Origin: Acidimicrobiaceae bacterium
GTDB taxonomy: Bacteria > Actinomycetota > Acidimicrobiia > Acidimicrobiales > Ilumatobacteraceae
Reading direction: 5' to 3'
DNA length: 64,000 nucleotides
Assembly (NCBI GenBank): GCA_012269985.1
Contig: JAAXJF010000011.1
Coordinates: 1-64,000, forward strand
A model generated the notes under the pieces. That model did not search any database and had not been told where the DNA came from. It worked only from the letters and a program-made list of their open reading frames with translations. Each line of letters starts with the position of its first letter. The first letter of the stretch is position 1. Shown piece after piece: positions 7,187 through 37,579 of this stretch. The translations under genes and the position numbers were made by a program.

Positions 7187-8053
7187 ATGGATGCGAAGAA
7201 CATCGCCCTCGTCAGCGCATCAGAACTTTCTCACCCAGACTCCGATCTCCTACCGCTCGTCTCAGCGCTTCAACAACTCAACATCAACGCAGAGGTCGTT
7301 GCCTGGGACGACGACATTGCATGGTCGAACTTTGACGCGGCGATCATTCGATCGACATGGGATTACCATCGCCGGCGCGAAGAGTTCGATCAATGGTTGA
7401 CACGGGTTTCACAGCAAACCCAACTGTGGAATCCTCCAGAGCTCATCCGGTGGAACAGTGACAAGCGTTATCTCGCCGATGTTGCCGCAAAAGGCCTACC
7501 GGTCGTTCCAACGACAGTCGTTGATCGCAACGAACACATGTCGCACCGCCAACTGGCCGAGATCGGCAGCGACATCGTTGTAAAGCCGTCGGTCGGAGCG
7601 GGGTCGCATGGGGTACAGCGCTTCACCGGACAGCATGAGGCGGCACTCAACTACCTGCGCGCCCTTATCGAATCTGGTGAAACCCCTCTCATCCAGCCGT
7701 ATCTGACCAACATCGATACTCACGGAGAAGTCGGACTCGTCACCGCAGTTGGTGTGCTGAGCCACTCCTTTCATAAAGAAGCGATCCTCACCGGCGACGT
7801 TCAGTGGTCAAGTGATGGTCACGTGCTTGAGGTCATTAGCGCCCACACGCCGAGTGAGAGTGAGTTGGCATTGTGTGATCGAGTGCTGGCACTGCTTCCT
7901 GAAACGGCGTATGCCCGTATCGACATGCTGCCCACCGATGATGGGCCTGTGATTTCTGAGATTGAACTCATTGAGCCTTCGCTCTTTCTCGAGGTCGACA
8001 CCGGCGCCGCGTATCGGATCGCAGCGGCCTTCGCCTCACTGGTTCGTCGATAG
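7187..8053 (+). CDS. ATP-grasp domain protein of unknown substrate
   Basis: About 288 residues. The N-terminal third is a Rossmann-like preATP-grasp domain (IALVSASE, IRSTWDYHRR), followed by the ATP-grasp fold with DIVVKPSVGAGSHGV as the glycine-rich loop and PVISEIELIEPSLFLE carrying the metal-binding acidic residues. This pattern resembles DcsG/RimK-like amide ligases. A GTG at 7178 is an alternative start. hemQ begins 11 bp downstream, and the gene's TAG stop is part of the hemQ -10 box. The carboxylate and amine substrates cannot be deduced. Confidence 0.82.
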   Translation: MDAKNIALVSASELSHPDSDLLPLVSALQQLNINAEVVAWDDDIAWSNFDAAIIRSTWDYHRRREEFDQWLTRVSQQTQLWNPPELIRWNSDKRYLADVAAKGLPVVPTTVVDRNEHMSHRQLAEIGSDIVVKPSVGAGSHGVQRFTGQHEAALNYLRALIESGETPLIQPYLTNIDTHGEVGLVTAVGVLSHSFHKEAILTGDVQWSSDGHVLEVISAHTPSESELALCDRVLALLPETAYARIDMLPTDDGPVISEIELIEPSLFLEVDTGAAYRIAAAFASLVRR

Positions 8054-8056
8054 CCT
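8051..8056 (+). promoter_or_regulatory. -10 box, leaderless hemQ start
   Basis: TAGCCT, 7 nt before the ATG at 8064. Its TAG is also the stop codon of the upstream gene. Confidence 0.45.
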
Positions 8057-8063
8057 CAACACC

Positions 8064-8717
8064 ATGCAAATGGACACCGGCGTCTGCGTTCTTCACCTCT
8101 TTTGTTCACCAACTGCGAAAGTTGATCGCGCTGCGCTGACATCCGCCATCGCCGATGCGACCTCAGCGGATTGCCAAGTGATCACGGCAGCAATGCTCGG
8201 TCACAAGGCCGACATCGGGGTGATGGCCATCAGCAACAACATGGCCGTGCTTCACTCGCTGCAAATCAACATGCAGCGAGCCGGTCTCAACATACGTGAC
8301 AGCTACCTAAGCATCACCGAGGTCAGCGAGTACGCCAAAGGCCTTCCAGAAGAAGCCTTACGTGACCGGCTCTATCCGCAACTCCCTCCCGAGGGCAAGC
8401 CTGCGTTCTGCTTCTACCCGATGAGCAAGCGGCGCGAGGGCCATGCCAACTGGTACGCAACTCCATTCGATCAGCGCACAGAAATGATGATGGAGCACGG
8501 GAAAAGCGGTCGAGCCTTCGCCGGAAAAATCGTGCAGCTCGTTACTGCGTCAACCGGTCTTGACTCTTACGAGTGGGGTGTCACGCTGTTCGGCGTCAGT
8601 CTCGAGATCATCAAAGATGTCGTGTACACCATGCGATTCGACAAGGGCTCGGCGATTTACGGAGAGTTCGGAGACTTTTTCGTGGGCTACCTCGCACCAA
8701 TCGAAGATCTGATCTGA
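8064..8717 (+). CDS. hemQ: Coproheme decarboxylase (chlorite dismutase family)
   Basis: Converts coproheme III to heme b in the coproporphyrin-dependent pathway of actinobacteria and firmicutes. The 217 residues carry YPMSK at 118-122, matching the catalytic Tyr and Lys spaced by four in HemQ enzymes, the NWY segment, and H145 in MEHGKSGR as the expected proximal heme ligand; GLDSYEWGV and MRFDKGSAIY follow. The Arg typical of true chlorite dismutases is not recognisable. Heme output fits the oxidase genes at 28-37 kb. Confidence 0.92.
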   Translation: MQMDTGVCVLHLFCSPTAKVDRAALTSAIADATSADCQVITAAMLGHKADIGVMAISNNMAVLHSLQINMQRAGLNIRDSYLSITEVSEYAKGLPEEALRDRLYPQLPPEGKPAFCFYPMSKRREGHANWYATPFDQRTEMMMEHGKSGRAFAGKIVQLVTASTGLDSYEWGVTLFGVSLEIIKDVVYTMRFDKGSAIYGEFGDFFVGYLAPIEDLI

Positions 8718-27982: not shown

Positions 27983-27988
27983 TACGAT
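27983..27988 (+). promoter_or_regulatory. -10 box, leaderless ctaB start
   Basis: TACGAT, 7 nt before the ATG at 27996; it overlaps the alternative ATG at 27987. Confidence 0.45.
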
Positions 27989-27995
27989 GAGGTCT

Positions 27996-28931
27996 ATGTC
28001 CATCGGCAGTCGCCCCCTCGTGCCCTCACGCGTGGCCTCCGGTGGAGTTGTTCACGGGAGCCGTGAACCTCGAAGTCGAGTCGGCGCGTTCGTTGCATTA
28101 ACAAAGCCTCGAATCATTGAACTTCTCCTTATAACAACCGTGCCCACGATGGTGCTGGCTCAGAACGGATGGCCGTCAACAACATTGGTGATCCTCACGC
28201 TCATCGGCGGCGCTCTCGCAGCGGGTGGGGCAAACACCATCAACATGTACGTCGATCGCGACATTGACGCGCTCATGGAACGCACTCGTCATCGGCCGCT
28301 CGTGACCGGTGTCGTTAAGCCGAAAGAGGCATTGATCTTTGCGCTTGTTCTCGAGTCGGCTGCCGTTGCGGTGTTGTGGGCGTCGGCAAACCTGTTATCG
28401 GCTCTCCTCGCGCTCTCTGCAACGGTGTTTTACGTCGGTGTGTATACCTTGTGGCTCAAGCGGACGAGTAGGCAAAACATAGTCATCGGTGGCGCAGCCG
28501 GCGCAGTTCCTGTTCTCGTCGGATGGGCCGCAGTGACCAATGGCCTGACGTGGGAGCCAGTTGTGCTCTTCGCTGTCATCTTCTTTTGGACGCCACCACA
28601 TTTCTGGGCGCTTGCACTTCGTTATGCCGACGATTACCGCTCGGCAAACGTGCCGATGCTGCCGGCGATCGTCCCTTTCCGGGCTGCCCATGTGCAGATG
28701 ATTGCTCACACGGTTGCGCTGGTGGCGTCGAGTGTGCTCGTCGCTTTGGTGTCATCGAACCTTGGCGTTGTTTATCTCGTCTCGGCTGGCGCACTGGGGG
28801 CAGCGTTTCTTGCTGGAACGATCCGTCTCGGCAGAAATCCTTCCGAGTCTGCCTCGATGCGTCTTTTTGGTTTCTCGATCACTTACATCACTCTGCTGTT
28901 TGCTGCATTGACAATCGACGTGTTGCTGTAA
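27996..28931 (+). CDS. ctaB: Protoheme IX farnesyltransferase (heme O synthase)
   Basis: UbiA-family membrane enzyme that adds a farnesyl group to heme b, giving heme O for aa3-type oxidases. About 311 residues with nine hydrophobic segments. The two Asp motifs are NMYVDRDIDALMERTRHRPL and the loop near YADDYRSANVPMLP; FWTPPHFWALALRY is diagnostic. An ATG at 27987 would add three residues, but the -10 box overlaps it. It sits just ahead of the oxidase gene run. A heme A synthase (ctaA) is not in the window. Confidence 0.93.
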   Translation: MSIGSRPLVPSRVASGGVVHGSREPRSRVGAFVALTKPRIIELLLITTVPTMVLAQNGWPSTTLVILTLIGGALAAGGANTINMYVDRDIDALMERTRHRPLVTGVVKPKEALIFALVLESAAVAVLWASANLLSALLALSATVFYVGVYTLWLKRTSRQNIVIGGAAGAVPVLVGWAAVTNGLTWEPVVLFAVIFFWTPPHFWALALRYADDYRSANVPMLPAIVPFRAAHVQMIAHTVALVASSVLVALVSSNLGVVYLVSAGALGAAFLAGTIRLGRNPSESASMRLFGFSITYITLLFAALTIDVLL

Positions 28932-29060: not shown

Positions 29061-30656
29061 ATGACGACGTTGGAACAATCGGGAACCGGAGCAGGAGCGG
29101 GTTCAGCGCTCCTTTCTGACGGTCGTATTGGTACCGCTGTTGGGGCAACTGTCGATTGGGTTACATCTACCGACCACAAGAAGATTGGGCGCCTGTTTAC
29201 AGGGTTCGGAATCCTCGGAATGATCGCAGTGTCGGTGATTGCGGTGATCCGGTCGCTTGAGTCAGTTGCCGATCTCGGAGCATTCAACGCTCAACAACTC
29301 GATCAGCTCACTCAACTGCATCACTTTGGTCTTGCGTTGATGGTGGCGCTGCCGTTGACCCTCGGTCTCAGCATTGCGGTCGCACCGATACAGGTTGGTG
29401 CTCGAGCGATTGCATTTGCTCGTCTCGCCCTCACGGGTTTCTATATGTGGCTTGCAGGAGCGGTGTTGACCATCGTTGCCATCGTCAACGGTGGGGGCAT
29501 CGGCGGCGCAGATAGTGACATGGTTGATCTGTTCCTCGCGGCGATGGCCCTCATGATGTTCGGTGTCATCGCCTCAGCGATCAGCGTTGCGACGACCATC
29601 CTTACCTCTCGTGCCCCCGGGGTCACGATGCGTCGTGTCCCGTTCTTGACATGGACGGCGTTGGTTCAGTCGTTGGCACTCATCATCACTGCGCCAGTAG
29701 TGGTCGGTCTCATTATTTACCTATTTGTTGACCACCGGAATTCAGCCCTTGCGTTCGGTGCCGCAGATGGCCTTGCCGATTGGCTTCCGAGATTCTTCAC
29801 CGCCCCGGTCGTGTACATCTTTGCGATTCCGGCGCTGGGGGTCTTCGCTGAGTTGCTGCCCGTTTCAATGAGCCGACGGCACCCCATGCGCCAGTTGGTG
29901 TTCACCGGTGCAGCCTTGGTCGGAGTCGCATCATTTGCCGGCGTCACCATGCAAAAGGCGTTCCCGGTTGACTTCTCCGAATCAGGCCAAGATGTCGTGA
30001 AGTCGCTTGTCGTGATGGCGTTCTTTGTTGGTCTTCCATTGCTCGGTATCGCAATCACGTTGCTCACCTCGTTGCTTGTTGCGAAACCTGATGGCTCCGG
30101 TGCGCCAAAGCCTCGAATTCTTAGCCCATTGCTGTTCGGGCTTCTTTCGATCCTTCTTCTCCTTCTTGGTGCTGGGGTCGGTGTGCTCACCCAGATTGTT
30201 GATCTCGAATTGAGCGGAACCGCAGCGGTCGAAGGCACGGTTGCGTTGATCTGTCTGGCTGCCGCTCTCGGAACGTTGGGTGGCCTCGTGTTTTGGGCTC
30301 CAAAATTTTCCGGCACTAAGCCTGACGAGAAAAAAGTTCTTCCTCTGGCTCTTCTCGGCGCTCTCGGTGTGGTTCTTGCCGGAGTTCCTGGTGTGATCGC
30401 TGGTCTTGCCGATTCAGATAGCTCTCTGTTCTCGACGTTGACCCTCATTGGGTACGCATTGATGGCTCTTACCGGTCTCGCCTTCGTCGGTGCGACCCGT
30501 GGCGGAACATCTGACGGAACCAACAACCCGTGGTGTGCTCACACCCTCGAATGGTCAACTGCATGCCCGGCTCCAGCCGACAACTACGAAGCTCTTGCCA
30601 CCGTTCGATCAGCAGAGCCCGAACTCGACCAACTTCCAGAAGGGAGCCCCTCGTGA
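29061..30656 (+). CDS. Cytochrome c oxidase subunit I-like protein lacking nearly all metal ligands
   Basis: A 531-residue polytopic membrane protein clearly homologous to CtaD, encoded 4.6 kb downstream: STDHKKIGRLF versus TIDHKKLGIMY, QVGARAIAFAR versus QIGARDVAFPR, APVVYIFAIPALGVFAELLP versus HPEVYILVLPSFGIVSEILP, and NPWCAHTLEW versus DPWDARSLEW. Of six metal-binding His in CtaD (98, 276, 325, 326, 411, 413) only the first aligns with a His here (H87); the others align with A248, T296, M297, G392 and V394. It therefore should not bind CuB or heme a3. The tyrosine of HPEVY is kept (Y252). The frame is intact with no stops, and its end overlaps the next gene (GTGA). Probably a structural, assembly or regulatory partner of the oxidase (inference). 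Confidence 0.85.
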   Translation: MTTLEQSGTGAGAGSALLSDGRIGTAVGATVDWVTSTDHKKIGRLFTGFGILGMIAVSVIAVIRSLESVADLGAFNAQQLDQLTQLHHFGLALMVALPLTLGLSIAVAPIQVGARAIAFARLALTGFYMWLAGAVLTIVAIVNGGGIGGADSDMVDLFLAAMALMMFGVIASAISVATTILTSRAPGVTMRRVPFLTWTALVQSLALIITAPVVVGLIIYLFVDHRNSALAFGAADGLADWLPRFFTAPVVYIFAIPALGVFAELLPVSMSRRHPMRQLVFTGAALVGVASFAGVTMQKAFPVDFSESGQDVVKSLVVMAFFVGLPLLGIAITLLTSLLVAKPDGSGAPKPRILSPLLFGLLSILLLLLGAGVGVLTQIVDLELSGTAAVEGTVALICLAAALGTLGGLVFWAPKFSGTKPDEKKVLPLALLGALGVVLAGVPGVIAGLADSDSSLFSTLTLIGYALMALTGLAFVGATRGGTSDGTNNPWCAHTLEWSTACPAPADNYEALATVRSAEPELDQLPEGSPS

Positions 30657-31231
30657 CGCTCGCTCTACCATCCGGTCCTGCACCAGCACCTCGCCGCCAA
30701 CTGCTTGTTGGGTCCGCTCTCGCGGGGCTCGCCGGCACCACTCTCATCGGTGGAATGCTCGCCGTTTGGCTTCTTGAGCGTCAGCACGCTGTCGATGCTG
30801 GTGAGCGGTTCCCGATGAATTACATCATCCCCGAGGTTGCGACGAACGTCATGTTGATCACGCTCTTCGGGCTTTGTTTCTTTGCCCAGTGGGCGGTCTA
30901 CGCAGCCCGCCGGCAAGACCGTGGGCACACCGGACTTGCTCTGTCAGTTGTCATTATTCTCGGTTTGGCCTTCGTCAACGCTCAAGCGTTTGTCTACAGC
31001 CAAATGGAAGTCGAGATTGCCGACGGAATCTACGGCGCCCTGTTCTACGCCCTCACCGGCACGATGATGGCGATCGTGATTGCGGGGCTCATCTTTACTG
31101 TGGTCGCAGCCTTCCGCACGCTTGGCGGTCGCGACTGGCAGTCCGAGATTGTCTCGGCGAATGCTTTGTATTGGTACTTCGCCGCTGTGGCCTATGCAGC
31201 GGTGTGGTTTGTCGTCTACGTCACGAAGTGA
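30653..31231 (+). CDS. Cytochrome c oxidase subunit III-like protein, degenerate
   Basis: A 192-residue protein with five or six membrane segments that aligns along its length with CtaE at 35674. YGALFYALTGTMMAIVIAGL matches SSSFYTLTGFHGVHVSVGII, and NALYWYFAAVAYAAVWFVVYV matches GLYWHFVDVVWILIFTLVYL. The HGxHV and YWHFVD histidines and acid that mark true subunit III are gone. GTG start overlaps the preceding stop (GTGA), so it is coupled to the subunit I-like gene: the two degenerate proteins mirror the I-III pair of the real enzyme. Confidence 0.8.
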   Translation: MTLALPSGPAPAPRRQLLVGSALAGLAGTTLIGGMLAVWLLERQHAVDAGERFPMNYIIPEVATNVMLITLFGLCFFAQWAVYAARRQDRGHTGLALSVVIILGLAFVNAQAFVYSQMEVEIADGIYGALFYALTGTMMAIVIAGLIFTVVAAFRTLGGRDWQSEIVSANALYWYFAAVAYAAVWFVVYVTK

Positions 31232-31244
31232 GGTCAGAGATCTG

Positions 31245-32372
31245 ATGTTCACCACCGGTTCAAAACTTCTCTTTGGAGCGAGCGGGGTTTCCCTCGTTGG
31301 AACGTTGCTGTACGGCATTCTTGTCGGCGGCATCATGGGCACGGTCGGTTTGGTGTCACTCACCACCGGGCTCATCTTTATCGCCGGTATTAATGCGTTT
31401 ATTCGCGATGCGAACGTTGCGTCAGACGATGTCTCACAGTTCTCTGGGTCGGCTGCCGCAGCACCTCGCCCAGGTTCATCGGTCTGGCCGCTCGTTGTTG
31501 CAGTTGGTGGCGCTCTGATCGCTCTCGGAGTTGTCATTCACGAAGTGCTGACTATTACAGGTCTGGTCGTTGTGCTAGCAGCATCTGCTGAGTGGCTGTT
31601 GCAGGGCTGGGCAGAAAGTGCCTCATCCGATGAAGTGCATAACCGTGAGGTACGTGGCCGCCTTGCGTACACCGCAGAGATGCCGGTTGCCGCAGCGATT
31701 GGGCTCGGTCTTATCGTCTTTATGTTCAGTCGGGTGATGCTCGGCGTTCCGACGAAAGCGTCCACCATCATTGCGTTCTCGATCGTTGCGACGATTGTGC
31801 TCGTTGCGGGAGCGGTGATCAGCCGTGCTCGTTCAATGTCGGCTCCCCGAATGTTCGGGCTCTTTGCCGTTGTGAGCGCGGTACTGCTCGCCGGTGGTGC
31901 TGTCGCCGGATTCAACGGCGAACGCGAAATCAAAGAGCACAAAACCACGGCCTATTACGCCGCAAATGATAAGTGTGGCGAGAAAGAGATCTCAGCCGAC
32001 GAGCACGCAAGTCAGACCGTTGCAGGCAAGGCAAATTCATCAGCCGAAGTCACGCTTGACGAAAACGGGCTGTCGTATACACGACCGGGCCTCAATATGG
32101 TGCAGAGCGGAGTAATTCAGTTGCCCCGTTCAAATGCGAACAACATTTTGTTCCGCAACGAAACATCTGAGCCTCGGCGCTTCATCGCAGAGATGGCTAA
32201 CGTCGATGGTTCCCCCGCACGAATCTGCACGGCGCTCGTCGAAGAAGGTGGCGTACAACTGCTTACCGTGAACTACTCGGCGCCAAGTTTTGACCCCGTA
32301 GTTGAAGAGTTAGGTGGCTACGCATTCGTGGTCGCTGGGCTTGACGACCGGATTGAGGTGATTGTGCCATGA
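31245..32372 (+). CDS. Membrane protein with C-terminal cupredoxin-like domain, third member of the shadow oxidase set
   Basis: 375 residues, not assigned to a family I know. The N-terminal 225 residues hold six or seven hydrophobic segments (about 10-52, 80-118, 147-166, 172-193, 203-222). A soluble domain of about 150 residues follows, probably outside the membrane, with beta-strand-rich blocks ILFRNETSEPRRFIAEM and GGYAFVVAGLDDRIEVIV that resemble a cupredoxin in layout. The His/Cys/Met copper set is missing; C244 and C328 could form a disulfide. The gene starts 13 bp after the III-like gene and its stop overlaps the ctaC start (ATGA). It could stand in for subunits II/IV in a complex with its two neighbours (inference). 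Confidence 0.65.
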   Translation: MFTTGSKLLFGASGVSLVGTLLYGILVGGIMGTVGLVSLTTGLIFIAGINAFIRDANVASDDVSQFSGSAAAAPRPGSSVWPLVVAVGGALIALGVVIHEVLTITGLVVVLAASAEWLLQGWAESASSDEVHNREVRGRLAYTAEMPVAAAIGLGLIVFMFSRVMLGVPTKASTIIAFSIVATIVLVAGAVISRARSMSAPRMFGLFAVVSAVLLAGGAVAGFNGEREIKEHKTTAYYAANDKCGEKEISADEHASQTVAGKANSSAEVTLDENGLSYTRPGLNMVQSGVIQLPRSNANNILFRNETSEPRRFIAEMANVDGSPARICTALVEEGGVQLLTVNYSAPSFDPVVEELGGYAFVVAGLDDRIEVIVP

Positions 32373-33667
32373 GTCACGAGAAGGTTCACTATCGCACCAT
32401 CTGTAATTCTGAACACGCGACTTCTAGTCTTGAGAATATGAGTTCTCGCGGCTTCAGAGTAGCGACGACGGTTGCAGGAGTAGTGGCGACCACCGTGCTC
32501 GCCGGATGCGCATCCGATGCCCCTCAAGACACCTGGAAACCGGCCGGTCCAAACGCTCAAAAGATCCAAGATCTGCAGTGGCCAATCTTCCTCACGGCCG
32601 GCGTTGTCGGCGTCATTGTGATGGCGTTCATTGCGTTTTGCGTCGTCAAGTATCGAGATCGTGGCCAAGCAATCCCCGATCAGGCCCATGGCAAGGCATG
32701 GCTTGAATACCTGTTCATTGCGATTCCGGCGGTCATTCTGACTGCGATTGCAATCCCAACAGTGGGTGTCGTGATGGCATTGAACGACACCGATGACACC
32801 GAATGTGTTATCAACGTGACAGGTCAGCAGTGGTGGTGGGAGTACGACTACGAGGTTGGTGCCGACGGCACGATTTGTGGCTACGCCCCGTCAGAAGTTG
32901 CGGCAAGCCCGATTATTACGTCTGGCCAGTTGGTGATTCCCGCAGACACGAAGGTGTTGTTGCGAGGCACCAGTCGTGACGTCATCCACAGTTATTGGAT
33001 TCCTCGTTTGAACGGCAAGCGCGACATGGTCCCAGGCCGTGTGCACTTCCTCCGCCTCGAATCTGACACACCAGGCATTTACGCCGGTCAGTGCACTGAG
33101 TTCTGCGGCCTGTCGCACGCAAACATGCGCATGGAGACTGTCGTTCTTGAGTCGGCTCATTTCCAGCAGTGGATTGATAACGAACTTGAGCCGTATCAGG
33201 CCCCAGCCGAAGGCAGCCTTGCGGCCGAAGGCGAGACAACCTTCATTGCCCAGTGCTCGCGATGCCACCAGGTCAACGGGCTGGTCGATCCAGGTAATGG
33301 CAATCTTGTGGTCTCGTATCCAGATCAATTTGTCTACTCAGGTGCTGCGCCAAACCTCACCAACTTCTTGGGTCGCAATACCTTCGCTGGAGCAACGTGG
33401 GATCTTCTCACCCCCGAGTGCCGCACCGATGTGTGGGAGTCAAGCCCTGGAGAGTTTGGCGACAAGTACCTCGCAGGTGTGTCACAAGACTGCCTCAACG
33501 AGATCGACCTTCGCGAATGGTTGCGGAATGCTCCAGCGAAGAAGCCGATGTATGCCGATCCAGCGATGCTGGAACAGAGTGACGGCAAGGTTCGTGGTAT
33601 GCCGTATCTCGGTCTGAGCGAAGACCAAATTGACCAACTAATCGCCTACCTCCTTGAGCGGAAGTGA
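32369..33667 (+). CDS. ctaC: Cytochrome c oxidase subunit II with fused cytochrome c
   Basis: Electron-entry subunit of a caa3-type oxidase. Two membrane segments (about 72-93 and 112-136) precede the CuA cupredoxin domain with ligands H207, C242, E244, C246, H250 and M253 in GQCTEFCGLSHANM. A C-terminal cytochrome c domain has CSRCH at 296-300 and a likely axial Met in GMPYLG. The ATG at 32369 overlaps the upstream stop and has GAGGTGAT 6 nt before it. An in-frame ATG at 32438 would begin exactly at a lipoprotein signal ending VLAGC and may be the true N-terminus. 432 residues from the first start. Confidence 0.93.
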   Translation: MSHEKVHYRTICNSEHATSSLENMSSRGFRVATTVAGVVATTVLAGCASDAPQDTWKPAGPNAQKIQDLQWPIFLTAGVVGVIVMAFIAFCVVKYRDRGQAIPDQAHGKAWLEYLFIAIPAVILTAIAIPTVGVVMALNDTDDTECVINVTGQQWWWEYDYEVGADGTICGYAPSEVAASPIITSGQLVIPADTKVLLRGTSRDVIHSYWIPRLNGKRDMVPGRVHFLRLESDTPGIYAGQCTEFCGLSHANMRMETVVLESAHFQQWIDNELEPYQAPAEGSLAAEGETTFIAQCSRCHQVNGLVDPGNGNLVVSYPDQFVYSGAAPNLTNFLGRNTFAGATWDLLTPECRTDVWESSPGEFGDKYLAGVSQDCLNEIDLREWLRNAPAKKPMYADPAMLEQSDGKVRGMPYLGLSEDQIDQLIAYLLERK

Positions 33668-33674
33668 GTAACTG

Positions 33675-35681
33675 ATGGCAATCATTGAACGCCCTTCAGA
33701 TGCAGTCGAAGTCGTTGACGAGACAACCCCTTCGGTAGCGACCCCTGAATCTTCTTACGGTGTGTTCCGCCGTCCCGTTGAAACGACCGGTTGGAAGTCG
33801 TGGCTCTTCACCATCGATCACAAAAAGCTCGGCATCATGTATGGCGTTGTCGCCATGTTCTTCTTCGTTGTCGGCGGCATTGAGGCGATGCTCATTCGTT
33901 TGCAGCTCGCAGGCCCTAACGGCACAGTGCTCTCGGCAGACAAGTACAACCAGATGTTCACGATGCACGCCACAACCATGGTGTTCCTCTTCGTCATGCC
34001 AATGGCTGCAGCGTTTGCGAACTATTTTGTTCCTCTGCAGATTGGTGCACGCGACGTTGCATTCCCCCGCATCAATGCGTTCGGATTCTGGGCGTTCCTC
34101 TTTGGTGGACTGTTCCTCAACACCTCATGGTTCTTGGGCGGCGGTGCCGACGGTGGATGGTTTATGTACGCACCAAACTCATCGGTAGCGTTCTCTCCGT
34201 CAAACGGCGTTGACTTCTGGGGACTCGGCTTGCAGATCACCGGTGTCGCCTCCCTAACCGGAGCGATCAACCTCATCGTCACCGTCATCAACATGCGGGC
34301 ACCGGGCATGAGCCTGATGAAGCTCCCGATCTTTACCTGGATGGTGTTGGTTGTGCAGTTCCTCTTGCTCTTCGCAATCCCAGTGATCACCGTTGCACTG
34401 TTCATGTTGATGTTCCAGCGCAGTTTCGATGCGACGTTCTTCAGCGTCGAGGCTGGAGCCGACCCACTGCTCTGGCAGCACCTGTTCTGGATCTTCGGTC
34501 ACCCCGAGGTGTACATCCTTGTTTTGCCAAGTTTCGGCATCGTCTCCGAAATCCTTCCGGTCTTCTCAAAGAAGCCTCTGTTCGGTTACCCGCTCGTCGT
34601 GTTCTCGGGCGCAGCTATCGGCTTTGTCGGTTGGGGCGTCTGGGCTCACCACATGTTTGCCTCGGGTCTCGGCCCGATTTCGGTTGCAGCCTTCTCGGTC
34701 GCAACCATGGCAATCGCGATTCCGACCGGTGTGAAGATCGTCAACTGGACCCTCACCATGTGGGGCGGAAAATTGCGATTCACTGTGCCGATGCTGTACT
34801 CCGTTGGCGTCATCGTGCAGTTCACCATCGGTGGTCTCTCCGGTGTCACGCACTCGGTTGCACCATCTGACACTCAGCAAACCGACACGTATTACATCGT
34901 CGCTCACTTCCACTACGTCATCTTTGGTGGTGCCGTGCTCGGGTTGTTTGCAGGCATGTACTACTGGTGGCCGAAGATGTTCGGAAAGATGCTCAACGAG
35001 CGTCTGGGACGAGTCAATTTCTGGCTCACGATCATTGGCATGAACCTCACCTTCGGACCGATGCATATTGTTGGTCTTCAAGGTCAGCCACGCCGTATGT
35101 ATGTATGGACGGAGAACCGTGCCGGTGACGGCTTCTTCAACATCGGTTTCTGGAACCTCATTGCCTCAATCGGATCATTCGTCTTGGCTCTCGGAATCTT
35201 GCTGTTCTTCGTGAACATTTATGTTTCACATCGAAAAGGCACCGAAAAAGCTCCTCTCGACCCATGGGATGCCCGCAGCCTCGAATGGATCACGACGAAC
35301 CCGCCGAAAGAACACAACTTCGATCGCCTGCCTCAGGTGGGTCACCTCGATGAGTTCTTCCACCGGAAGTATGAAGACCGTGGTTCAGATGGCCATCACG
35401 AGTTCCATCAGATCGCTACAGCTGAAGAGGTTGTCGCTGAAGAAGAGAACAACGCTGACGGGCACATTCATTTGCCGTCACCGTCGTACTGGCCAATTCT
35501 TCTGGCCTTCAGCCTTCCGATCATGGCTTACGGTGTGATCTACAACGTGTTCCTTCTCATCGGAGGGGCCGTACTTGGTCTGGTCTCGTTCTACGGATGG
35601 GGTCTTGAGCCTCACACTGCGCCAGAAGATGATTACGATCCGCCAACCGGCACAGCGATGGAGGTTGCCGCTCATGGCTGA
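33675..35681 (+). CDS. ctaD: Cytochrome c oxidase subunit I
   Basis: Catalytic heme-copper subunit (type A) reducing O2 in the membrane. All ligands are present: H98 and H413 for heme a, H411 for heme a3, and H276, H325, H326 for CuB, with Y280 positioned for the His-Tyr crosslink. D-channel (D127, E278) and K-channel (K354) residues are also in place. Twelve core helices are followed by an extension from about residue 540 that includes an acidic/His-rich linker and two further hydrophobic segments, giving 668 residues; similar extensions occur in actinobacteria. It follows ctaC by 7 bp and overlaps ctaE by 8 nt. Confidence 0.96.
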   Translation: MAIIERPSDAVEVVDETTPSVATPESSYGVFRRPVETTGWKSWLFTIDHKKLGIMYGVVAMFFFVVGGIEAMLIRLQLAGPNGTVLSADKYNQMFTMHATTMVFLFVMPMAAAFANYFVPLQIGARDVAFPRINAFGFWAFLFGGLFLNTSWFLGGGADGGWFMYAPNSSVAFSPSNGVDFWGLGLQITGVASLTGAINLIVTVINMRAPGMSLMKLPIFTWMVLVVQFLLLFAIPVITVALFMLMFQRSFDATFFSVEAGADPLLWQHLFWIFGHPEVYILVLPSFGIVSEILPVFSKKPLFGYPLVVFSGAAIGFVGWGVWAHHMFASGLGPISVAAFSVATMAIAIPTGVKIVNWTLTMWGGKLRFTVPMLYSVGVIVQFTIGGLSGVTHSVAPSDTQQTDTYYIVAHFHYVIFGGAVLGLFAGMYYWWPKMFGKMLNERLGRVNFWLTIIGMNLTFGPMHIVGLQGQPRRMYVWTENRAGDGFFNIGFWNLIASIGSFVLALGILLFFVNIYVSHRKGTEKAPLDPWDARSLEWITTNPPKEHNFDRLPQVGHLDEFFHRKYEDRGSDGHHEFHQIATAEEVVAEEENNADGHIHLPSPSYWPILLAFSLPIMAYGVIYNVFLLIGGAVLGLVSFYGWGLEPHTAPEDDYDPPTGTAMEVAAHG

Positions 35682-36288
35682 TACCGCAGTTCACGCCGAC
35701 GAACACGTCGATCACGGAGGCCATTACTCATCGACCGGCTTGTCGAACAACAAGCTGGCAATGTGGATGTTCCTCGGTTCAGAGTGTTTGCTGTTCGGAG
35801 GCCTCATCTCGACGTACATGCTGTACCGCGGACGCCACTCAGAAAACCTTGGGCCTGACCAGGTGTGGGACATTCCGTTCACATCAGCGTCGAGTTTCGT
35901 GTTGCTGATGTCGTCTCTCACGATGGTGCTCGCAGTGTCGTCGGCCGTACGCGACGATGACCGAAATACCAAGGTATGGCTGTCGGTGACGGCTCTACTC
36001 GGCGCACTATTCGTCGCTGGTCAGGTTTACGAGTTCACCACCTTCTATCGCGAGGGCCTCGGTTTCACGACCAGTCTCTTCTCATCGAGTTTCTACACCC
36101 TCACCGGCTTCCACGGTGTTCACGTGAGCGTCGGCATCATCATGTTGATGTCGTTGGTTGGAATGATTTCAAAGAACAAAGTCGTCGGTGACAAGAAAGA
36201 GACCGTCGAACTCTTTGGCCTCTACTGGCACTTCGTTGACGTGGTGTGGATCCTCATCTTCACCCTTGTCTACCTGATCCCGGCCTGA
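35674..36288 (+). CDS. ctaE: Cytochrome c oxidase subunit III
   Basis: A 204-residue, five-helix subunit III. A His-rich N-terminus (HADEHVDHGGH) precedes LAMWMFLGSECLLFGGLIS; FYTLTGFHGVHV and GLYWHFVDVVWI are the family hallmarks. The ATG at 35674 lies within the end of ctaD and has GGAGG 9 nt upstream. It is the intact counterpart of the degenerate protein at 30653. Confidence 0.94.
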   Translation: MADTAVHADEHVDHGGHYSSTGLSNNKLAMWMFLGSECLLFGGLISTYMLYRGRHSENLGPDQVWDIPFTSASSFVLLMSSLTMVLAVSSAVRDDDRNTKVWLSVTALLGALFVAGQVYEFTTFYREGLGFTTSLFSSSFYTLTGFHGVHVSVGIIMLMSLVGMISKNKVVGDKKETVELFGLYWHFVDVVWILIFTLVYLIPA

Positions 36289-36304: not shown

Positions 36305-36634
36305 ATGAGCACCGTCACAGAACAGCACGACACCCACGGCGATGAACATGCCGACCACGGCTTAACCGATCTGGGTTATATCAAGATCGCTATATTCCTC
36401 GCGGTCGTTACCGCTGTCGAGGTCGTCTTCAGCTACACCCAAGATCAGTTGGGTGCAGCATTCCTGCCTGGCTTGCTCATTTTGATGGCGGTCAAATTCT
36501 TCATGGTGTTGCTCTACTTCATGCACCTGAAATTCGACTCAAAGCTGTTCAGTTTGATGTTTTATATCGGGCTTGTTCTCGCTGTCGGTTGTTATGCAGT
36601 GTTCTTGGCAACCCTGCATTTCTTCCAGAGCTGA
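36305..36634 (+). CDS. ctaF: Cytochrome c oxidase subunit IV family protein
   Basis: A 109-residue protein with a His/Asp-rich N-terminus and three membrane helices, matching the small CyoD/COX4-type subunit: YIKIAIFLAVVTAVEVVFSY, MAVKFFMVLLYFMHLKFDSKLF and a final hydrophobic helix. It stabilises the oxidase core in related systems. Located 16 bp after ctaE. Confidence 0.88.
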   Translation: MSTVTEQHDTHGDEHADHGLTDLGYIKIAIFLAVVTAVEVVFSYTQDQLGAAFLPGLLILMAVKFFMVLLYFMHLKFDSKLFSLMFYIGLVLAVGCYAVFLATLHFFQS

Positions 36635-36637
36635 GGT

Positions 36638-37579
36638 GTGGTTGACATGATGTTGGCGCAGGTCGACATCGCTACTGATCCGTGGAAGTTTGTCCCACAC
36701 CCTGAGGTGTGGCTCCTCACTAGCTTTCTGACGATCGCCTACATCTACACAGTGCGTGTCATCGGGCCGAAAGCCGTGGCGCCTGGCGAATCAGCTCTGA
36801 GCCGTTCACACGTCGTGTCGTTTGTGGCGGCCATCACGGTGCTGTGGGTTTCAAGTGACTGGCCGATCCACGACATCAGCGAGGATTACCTCTATTCGGT
36901 GCACATGGTGCAGCACATGGCGCTGTCGTTCTGGCTCCCACCGCTCGCTCTGCTCGCAACCCCCGCCTGGCTGATGCGCGTGCTCATCGGATCGGGTTCG
37001 ACGTATCGAGCGATGCGCTTCCTCACTCGCCCTGTCATCGCAGCATTGCTTTTCAATGGTGCAACACTGCTCACCCACATGCCATCGCTGGTGAATGCGT
37101 CGGTTGGCGACGGGTACTGGAATGGGGCTCTGCACTACCTGCTTCACGTCCTGGTCGTTGCGTCAGCGCTGTTGATGTGGATGCCCGTGGTTGGTCCGAT
37201 ACGTGAATTCCAGCTCGGTCCATTGGGCAAAGGCATTTATCTCTTCGCACAATCGATCATTCCAACGATTCCAGCTGCCTTTCTCACCTTTGCAGAATCT
37301 GCGGTGTACGAGGCGTACGCCCGTCCGGTTCGACTCTGGGGTCTCTCGCTCGCAGAAGACCAGCAACTCGCTGGGGCGATCATGAAAACAATGGCGGGCA
37401 TGTTCTTGTGGGCGCTCATCATTGGCTACTTCATCCAATACGCAAAGCAATTCCGCAATAGTCACGACTACCGGCGAAACTCCTCCAACACGCCTGAAGA
37501 GGCTGACGAGGGGCCGCTGACGACCGCCGATGTAGAAGCGGCGTTTGCACGCACAGCTCCTGCCCGCGAAGAAGACTAG
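36638..37579 (+). CDS. ctaG: CtaG-type (caa3_CtaG) oxidase assembly membrane protein
   Basis: A 313-residue polytopic membrane protein of the caa3_CtaG family, linked to copper delivery to oxidases. Blocks: PHPEVWLLTSFLTIAYIYTV, SVHMVQHMALSFWLPPLALLATP (His/Met-rich, plausible copper contact), LLTHMPSLVN and LHYLLHVLVVASALLMWMPV. GTG start at 36638 is 3 bp after ctaF; an ATG at 36647 is an alternative. It closes the operon that began at 29061. Confidence 0.88.
   Translation: MVDMMLAQVDIATDPWKFVPHPEVWLLTSFLTIAYIYTVRVIGPKAVAPGESALSRSHVVSFVAAITVLWVSSDWPIHDISEDYLYSVHMVQHMALSFWLPPLALLATPAWLMRVLIGSGSTYRAMRFLTRPVIAALLFNGATLLTHMPSLVNASVGDGYWNGALHYLLHVLVVASALLMWMPVVGPIREFQLGPLGKGIYLFAQSIIPTIPAAFLTFAESAVYEAYARPVRLWGLSLAEDQQLAGAIMKTMAGMFLWALIIGYFIQYAKQFRNSHDYRRNSSNTPEEADEGPLTTADVEAAFARTAPAREED

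Follow-up and report, generated by a model that had tools for sequence, protein, structure and literature searches.

A copper-less, mostly haem-less set of oxidase-like subunits joined to the caa3 operon of Acidimicrobiales, probably a structural part and not an enzyme

Few enzymes of aerobic life are as conserved as subunit I of complex IV, and its six histidines are taken as a diagnostic mark. The locus described here was compared with the III2IV2 bcc-aa3 supercomplex of M. smegmatis, whose complex IV contains CtaD, CtaE and CtaF together with its own CtaC carrying CuA; with the caa3-type cytochrome c oxidase (CtaC-cytochrome c, CtaD, CtaE, cox4 and CtaG); and with TM-anchored cupredoxin proteins whose genes lie downstream of ctaG in the caa3 operons of genomes outside the order (L222 5159-5944, L223 3949-4632 and L224 4996-5772). 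In the M. smegmatis supercomplex the main contacts between complexes III and IV are made by CtaE and CtaF (PMC8361435). A search of the open-access part of PMC turned up no account of an oxidase operon with a subunit I that lacks its ligands, which is weak evidence of absence.

The window, which is the whole stretch of 64,000 nucleotides analyzed, contains an oxidase operon in which the gene D' is the first of a three-gene module, D'E'F'; like D', the E' and F' genes that follow encode degenerate oxidase subunits. The genes after the module (ctaC, ctaD, ctaE, cox4 and ctaG) encode an ordinary caa3 oxidase. The features are as follows.

27987..28931, plus strand: ctaB, haem O synthase, upstream of the module and beside the divergent clpS (TIGR01473, 322 bits); it flanks the module in all informative loci.
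29061..30656, plus strand: D', ligand-depleted homologue of CtaD (subunit I) with 12 TM helices (PF00115, 109 bits; Z 37 to 6adq_F; ligand table).
30653..31231, plus strand: E', CtaE-like homologue of subunit III, 192 aa (PF00510, E 4e-10; NF050119, E 7e-12; placed within actinobacterial CtaE by the tree).
31245..32372, plus strand: F' (PF12270 below cut-off, E 0.006; matches over one half each to CtaF and TM-cupredoxin proteins; Foldseek matches to 4hcf and auracyanin).
32369..33667, plus strand: ctaC, genuine subunit II with the CuA motif and a fused cytochrome c, caa3 type (TIGR02866, 177 bits; COX2 and Cytochrom_C).
33675..35681, plus strand: ctaD, genuine subunit I of caa3, all ligands present (TIGR02891, 687 bits; HHEYHHHHK).
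35674..36288, plus strand: ctaE, genuine subunit III (COX3, E 3e-18).
36305..36634, plus strand: cox4-type small subunit (PF03626, E 2e-11).
36638..37579, plus strand: ctaG, caa3 assembly factor (PF09678, E 2e-39).

The start of E' overlaps the stop of D' (GTGA), ctaC can start within the stop of F' (ATGA), and the start of ctaE was set at the ATG that overlaps ctaD. The genuine caa3 CtaD (33675-35681) is extended at its C terminus by a segment like subunit IV of actinobacterial cytochrome oxidase; the match to PF12270 (E 2e-5) falls just short of the cut-off. In comparison with the bcc-aa3 oxidase, the module has homologous subunits: D' and E' group there in trees, the same fold is predicted, and residues 1-121 of F' match CtaF. 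However, the module is without all of the CuB ligands and, in most lineages, without the haem ligands; a CtaC with CuA is absent from it, and the ctaC that follows is of the cytochrome c-fused caa3 type; its F' has an extra TM-cupredoxin half; and it is encoded within the operon of a caa3 oxidase, the genomes having a bc complex with short cytochrome b.

The open reading frame of D' is intact and encodes 531 amino acids. The match to PF00115 (COX1; E 4e-31) was over the curated cut-off of 34.8 bits, the match to NF050116 (actinobacterial CtaD) reached 147 bits, and phmmer aligned M. smegmatis CtaD with D' over residues 30-522 (E 5e-33). The structure predicted for D' alone has 12 helices and matched 6adq_F at Z 37 with an rmsd of 3.0 over 450 residues; the alignment behind this model contained genuine CtaD rows, which biases it to the canonical fold. 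With both the family-level similarity and the 12-TM fold of COX1, D' is a true member of that fold family.

The metal ligands of this fold were located in a family-wide alignment with genuine CtaD. The column of the first haem a histidine holds H87 in D', the CuB columns hold A248, M297 and Q298, the haem a3 column holds T393, and the column of the second haem a histidine holds A395. An earlier sequence-only reading had described D' as an intact, ligand-depleted homologue of subunit I, and the profile matches, phmmer, the model and the ligand table bear this out; of its positions, T296, G392 and V394 were each one residue off (CuB reads A248, M297 and Q298 and not A248, T296 and M297, haem a3 reads T393 and the second haem a histidine A395), which leaves its conclusion unchanged. 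The three CuB histidines were kept in none of the 94 D' proteins. The haem a3 histidine and the pair of haem a histidines are likewise incomplete in D', and the proton-channel columns (D- and K-channel) have changed from E286 to V250 and from K362 to T333. Even at the H87 column, only 8 of the 23 D' proteins of the window's family have a histidine. The sole invariant histidine among these 23 proteins is H39, in the N-terminal DHK motif; no compensating histidine is conserved besides it, so that other histidines were rejected as substitute ligands and the six were not restored elsewhere in D'. The conserved residues of D' are scattered across the helices and form no single patch. Loss of the oxygen-reducing function of D' is well supported by these sequence data, because D' has no CuB ligands, no haem a3 histidine and no proton-channel residues. 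The genuine CtaD copies checked all had HHEYHHHHK, except for frameshifted or partial copies and one K-to-V variant; the latter (L210 4864-6735) is the CtaD of a module-less family in the order, with all metal ligands present and a valine at K362 of the K channel.

F' is composite. Residues 1-121 are CtaF-like, residues 126-228 are homologous to the TM part of the membrane-anchored cupredoxin proteins of caa3 operons, and residues 265-375 have a predicted cupredoxin fold (pLDDT 70-86; Foldseek 4hcf, E 2e-4, and auracyanin 6kol, E 5e-4) from which the copper ligands are absent. F' looks, by sequence, like a fusion of CtaF with a TM-cupredoxin protein. The proteins of L222-L224 share homology with residues 126-228 and have a C-terminal cupredoxin-like domain, but they are encoded by separate genes with no CtaF fusion, and their copper-site motif has been lost in the F' of the window. 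The type-1 copper ligands His/Cys/His/Met, absent from the window's F', are present in the F' of L027, L032, L036, L037, L040, L183-L186, L214-L217 and others. Two cysteines in or near the cupredoxin domain, C244 and C328, are invariant in the F' proteins of the window's family (31245-32372 in the window), and possibly form a disulfide that replaces the copper site.

Intermediate states of haem and copper loss were found within the order. All three haem histidines were kept in 10/94 D' proteins and both haem a histidines in 25/94, and the rest, including those of the window's family, were without at least one of the pair. The sequence-only reading had also proposed a single-haem module; this fails for the window's family, in which H87 is not conserved and the second ligand is absent, but it fits other families, in which the haem a pair is intact. 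In 17 of the 94 cases F' had the full type-1 copper motif (H...C-D-x-H...M); both haem a histidines were kept in 16 of these 17, in comparison with 9 of the 77 without the motif. The haem- and copper-keeping forms are early branches of the D' tree, and most other lineages, including the window's family, have neither the haem ligands nor the blue-copper site. The D' tree requires 4 changes of the copper state and 6 of the haem state, and with these 4-6 contrasts the association of haem with copper was not significant once relatedness was counted; joint retention is suggestive only. In some operons of the diheme-type D' families, a TlpA/ResA-like thioredoxin reading frame, identified by eye from its CxPC motif, lies between F' and ctaC (L032 7591-8229, L036 about 7500-8134 and L037 7555-8100).

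The ancestry of D' and E' was examined in trees rooted with CyoB, QoxB and proteobacterial, archaeal and Paenibacillus subunits. D' was the sister of actinobacterial bcc-aa3 CtaD (support 98/94), and E' was placed within actinobacterial CtaE (support 98/97); the shapes of the two trees are parallel. Clades of D' with caa3 CtaD (p-AU 0.023) and of E' with its caa3 counterpart (p-AU 0.025) were both rejected, values that need caution given the long D' branches, although the two genes agree. On their sequences, D' and E' are of the bcc-aa3 CtaD/CtaE lineage. The caa3 oxidase shares its operon with the module and co-occurs with it near-universally in the order, but its catalytic subunits are neighbours of D' and E' and not close paralogues, and an origin of D' and E' as duplicates of them was rejected by the rooted trees. 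The word 'paralogue' in the sequence-only reading therefore holds for homology with CtaD and not for duplication of the adjacent gene. The window's genome encodes a bc complex whose cytochrome b is of the short type (L147) and not the mycobacterial QcrB, together with a Rieske protein and c-type cytochromes; thus one cannot take the ancestral docking surface for granted. In the bc-complex operon of this genome, the gene immediately upstream of the short cytochrome b (L147 3353-3766) is small and ferredoxin-like, with two CxxCxxC-type clusters.

The gene order clpS (divergent)-ctaB-D'-E'-F'-ctaC-ctaD-ctaE was the same wherever a module locus of the family or the taxonomic order was informative. 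The named records among the nearest matches were Ilumatobacteraceae and other Acidimicrobiia or Acidimicrobiales MAGs. With an E-value limit of 1e-5, the F' profile matched 188/248 genomes of the order, of which 24 were weak half-matches by the table count, which leaves about 164/248 genomes with the module. Across 296 genomes of the phylum, matches to the full-length F' profile were confined to this order, and the module was not seen outside it among the sampled genomes. D'-like candidates outside the order (G133 and G044) and in its module-less families (G096 and G084) all had CuB motifs and were rejected as genuine CtaD; a separate CtaF-like sequence was found nearby in both groups. An assembly artefact was also rejected, since genomes assembled as one contig, G026, G042 and G066 among them, carry the module. 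In one MAG, D' is read in two overlapping frames (L073 1960-3551), by sequencing error or frameshift.

A caa3-like CtaD was found in about 155/248 genomes of the order, and only G159, G287 and G347 had it without an F' match; in each of these, a different contig carries D' as a copy or fragment. The listed module-less genomes had only a more distant CtaD score, in the bcc-aa3 range. Where F' occurred without a full caa3 CtaD match, the module was mostly at a contig end or CtaD was split. In the sampled genomes of the order, the module accompanies caa3 almost without exception. The only clear module genome without a nearby caa3 CtaD was G158 (L211 10922-14121; 6% estimated contamination), in which F' is truncated; this one case suggests decay after loss of caa3.

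Selection was estimated by the Nei-Gojobori method. The dN/dS of D' between the window and close relatives was 0.06-0.10, similar to that of ctaB (0.05-0.10) and above that of genuine ctaD (given as 0.00-0.02 and as 0.00-0.06); against the more distant G014 it was 0.17, with dS near saturation. D' is under purifying selection and is not decaying. The earlier proposal of a non-catalytic partner kept by selection is supported by the missing catalytic ligands, by orthologues upstream of ctaC across the order with the same or related losses, by the conserved synteny and by dN/dS values that show no relaxed selection. The module thus consists of known oxidase subunits that fail the defining ligand tests of their family across the order, yet are under selection.

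We give an about even chance to the reading that D'E'F' are docking subunits of a bcc-aa3 oxidase kept as a non-catalytic accessory membrane module for caa3. D', E' and F' would be the subunit I, subunit III and CtaF part of an actinobacterial bcc-aa3-type oxidase that has lost O2 reduction. They would be produced together with the caa3 oxidase and act as a structural or docking partner that stabilises it or ties it to an electron donor complex. At an early stage, represented by the basal families, D' would have had haem ligands but no CuB, most often beside an F' with a blue-copper cupredoxin, and such a module could have relayed electrons; the window's family has lost the conserved metal ligands of D' and F', and there the scaffold alone would be left. 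Homologues of CtaE and CtaF are among the subunits kept, and a subunit II gene of its own is absent from the module. Counted in favour of this docking reading are the loss of catalytic and proton-channel residues, the fixed gene order, the D'/E' and F'/ctaC overlaps in the window, the co-occurrence with caa3, the dN/dS values, the rooted trees and the graded ligand series. Against it count the short-cytochrome-b type of the bc complex, the non-significant haem/copper association and the bias of the D' model. From the sequence data we infer that D'E'F' would be members of the caa3 complex, and the scaffold or docking role would follow by analogy with the mycobacterial subunits; the scaffold or supercomplex subunit suggested by the sequence-only reading would fit the subunits retained. 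The partner surface may differ from the ancestral one because the bc complex differs. More tentatively, and with doubt outweighing confidence, the haem-copper superfamily could contain, alongside the O2 and NO reductases, a third functional class, an oxidase-derived complex without CuB. It would have begun as an electron relay with haem and blue copper and, across most of the order, turned into a pseudo-complex IV that has no cofactors and belongs permanently to the caa3 assembly, each stage being represented by living intermediates.

An assembly or maturation factor for caa3, such as a template that passes haem a or copper to CtaD or a chaperone for the insertion of CtaC and CtaD, would suit the position of the module between ctaB and ctaC with ctaG downstream, the haem and blue-copper ligands kept in the ancestral forms, and the thioredoxin gene of some diheme-type operons. 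Nevertheless, most families have lost all cofactor ligands while the genes are still under selection, so cofactor hand-off cannot be the general role, and caa3 operons of other classes manage without the module; we consider this explanation unlikely. It is rather improbable that D'E'F' form a complex of their own that serves in transport, sensing or as a channel and is tied to caa3 by co-regulation only: the three membrane subunits are co-inherited, with parallel D' and E' trees, and the residues conserved in D' are dispersed among the helices and not gathered in one patch, but the co-occurrence with caa3 is near-exclusive, the codons of F' and ctaC overlap, and F' is truncated in L211, the one clear module genome that has no caa3 CtaD nearby. 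A D' that still acts as a redox or gas-binding haem protein, with one or two haems and no copper, is plausible by sequence in some families, with bis-His haem a positions in 25/94 and the haem a3 histidine too in 10/94; in the window the second haem a histidine and the haem a3 histidine are absent, H87 is a histidine in 8/23 and no other TM histidine is conserved, which makes this very improbable. That D' is a decaying, functionless leftover, as its faster evolution than genuine CtaD and the stepwise loss of catalytic residues might suggest, is scarcely credible given frames that are open in almost all loci, single-contig genomes included, a dN/dS of about 0.06, and a single origin with long retention across the order, and the pseudogene reading was rejected on dN/dS and breadth of occurrence.

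As a caution for annotation pipelines, a match to PF00115 over its cut-off need not mean an oxygen reductase, so the numbers of terminal oxidases counted in Acidimicrobiia are inflated. Most sampled bacteria of the order carry a copper-less, mostly haem-less oxidase-like set joined to a working oxidase operon, probably as a structural or adaptor part and not as an enzyme. An oxidase core kept by selection after the loss of its histidines, together with the surviving intermediates, would provide a natural series that separates the structural from the catalytic roles of subunit I, subunit III and CtaF, and the same series would also serve to test what holds respiratory supercomplexes together.
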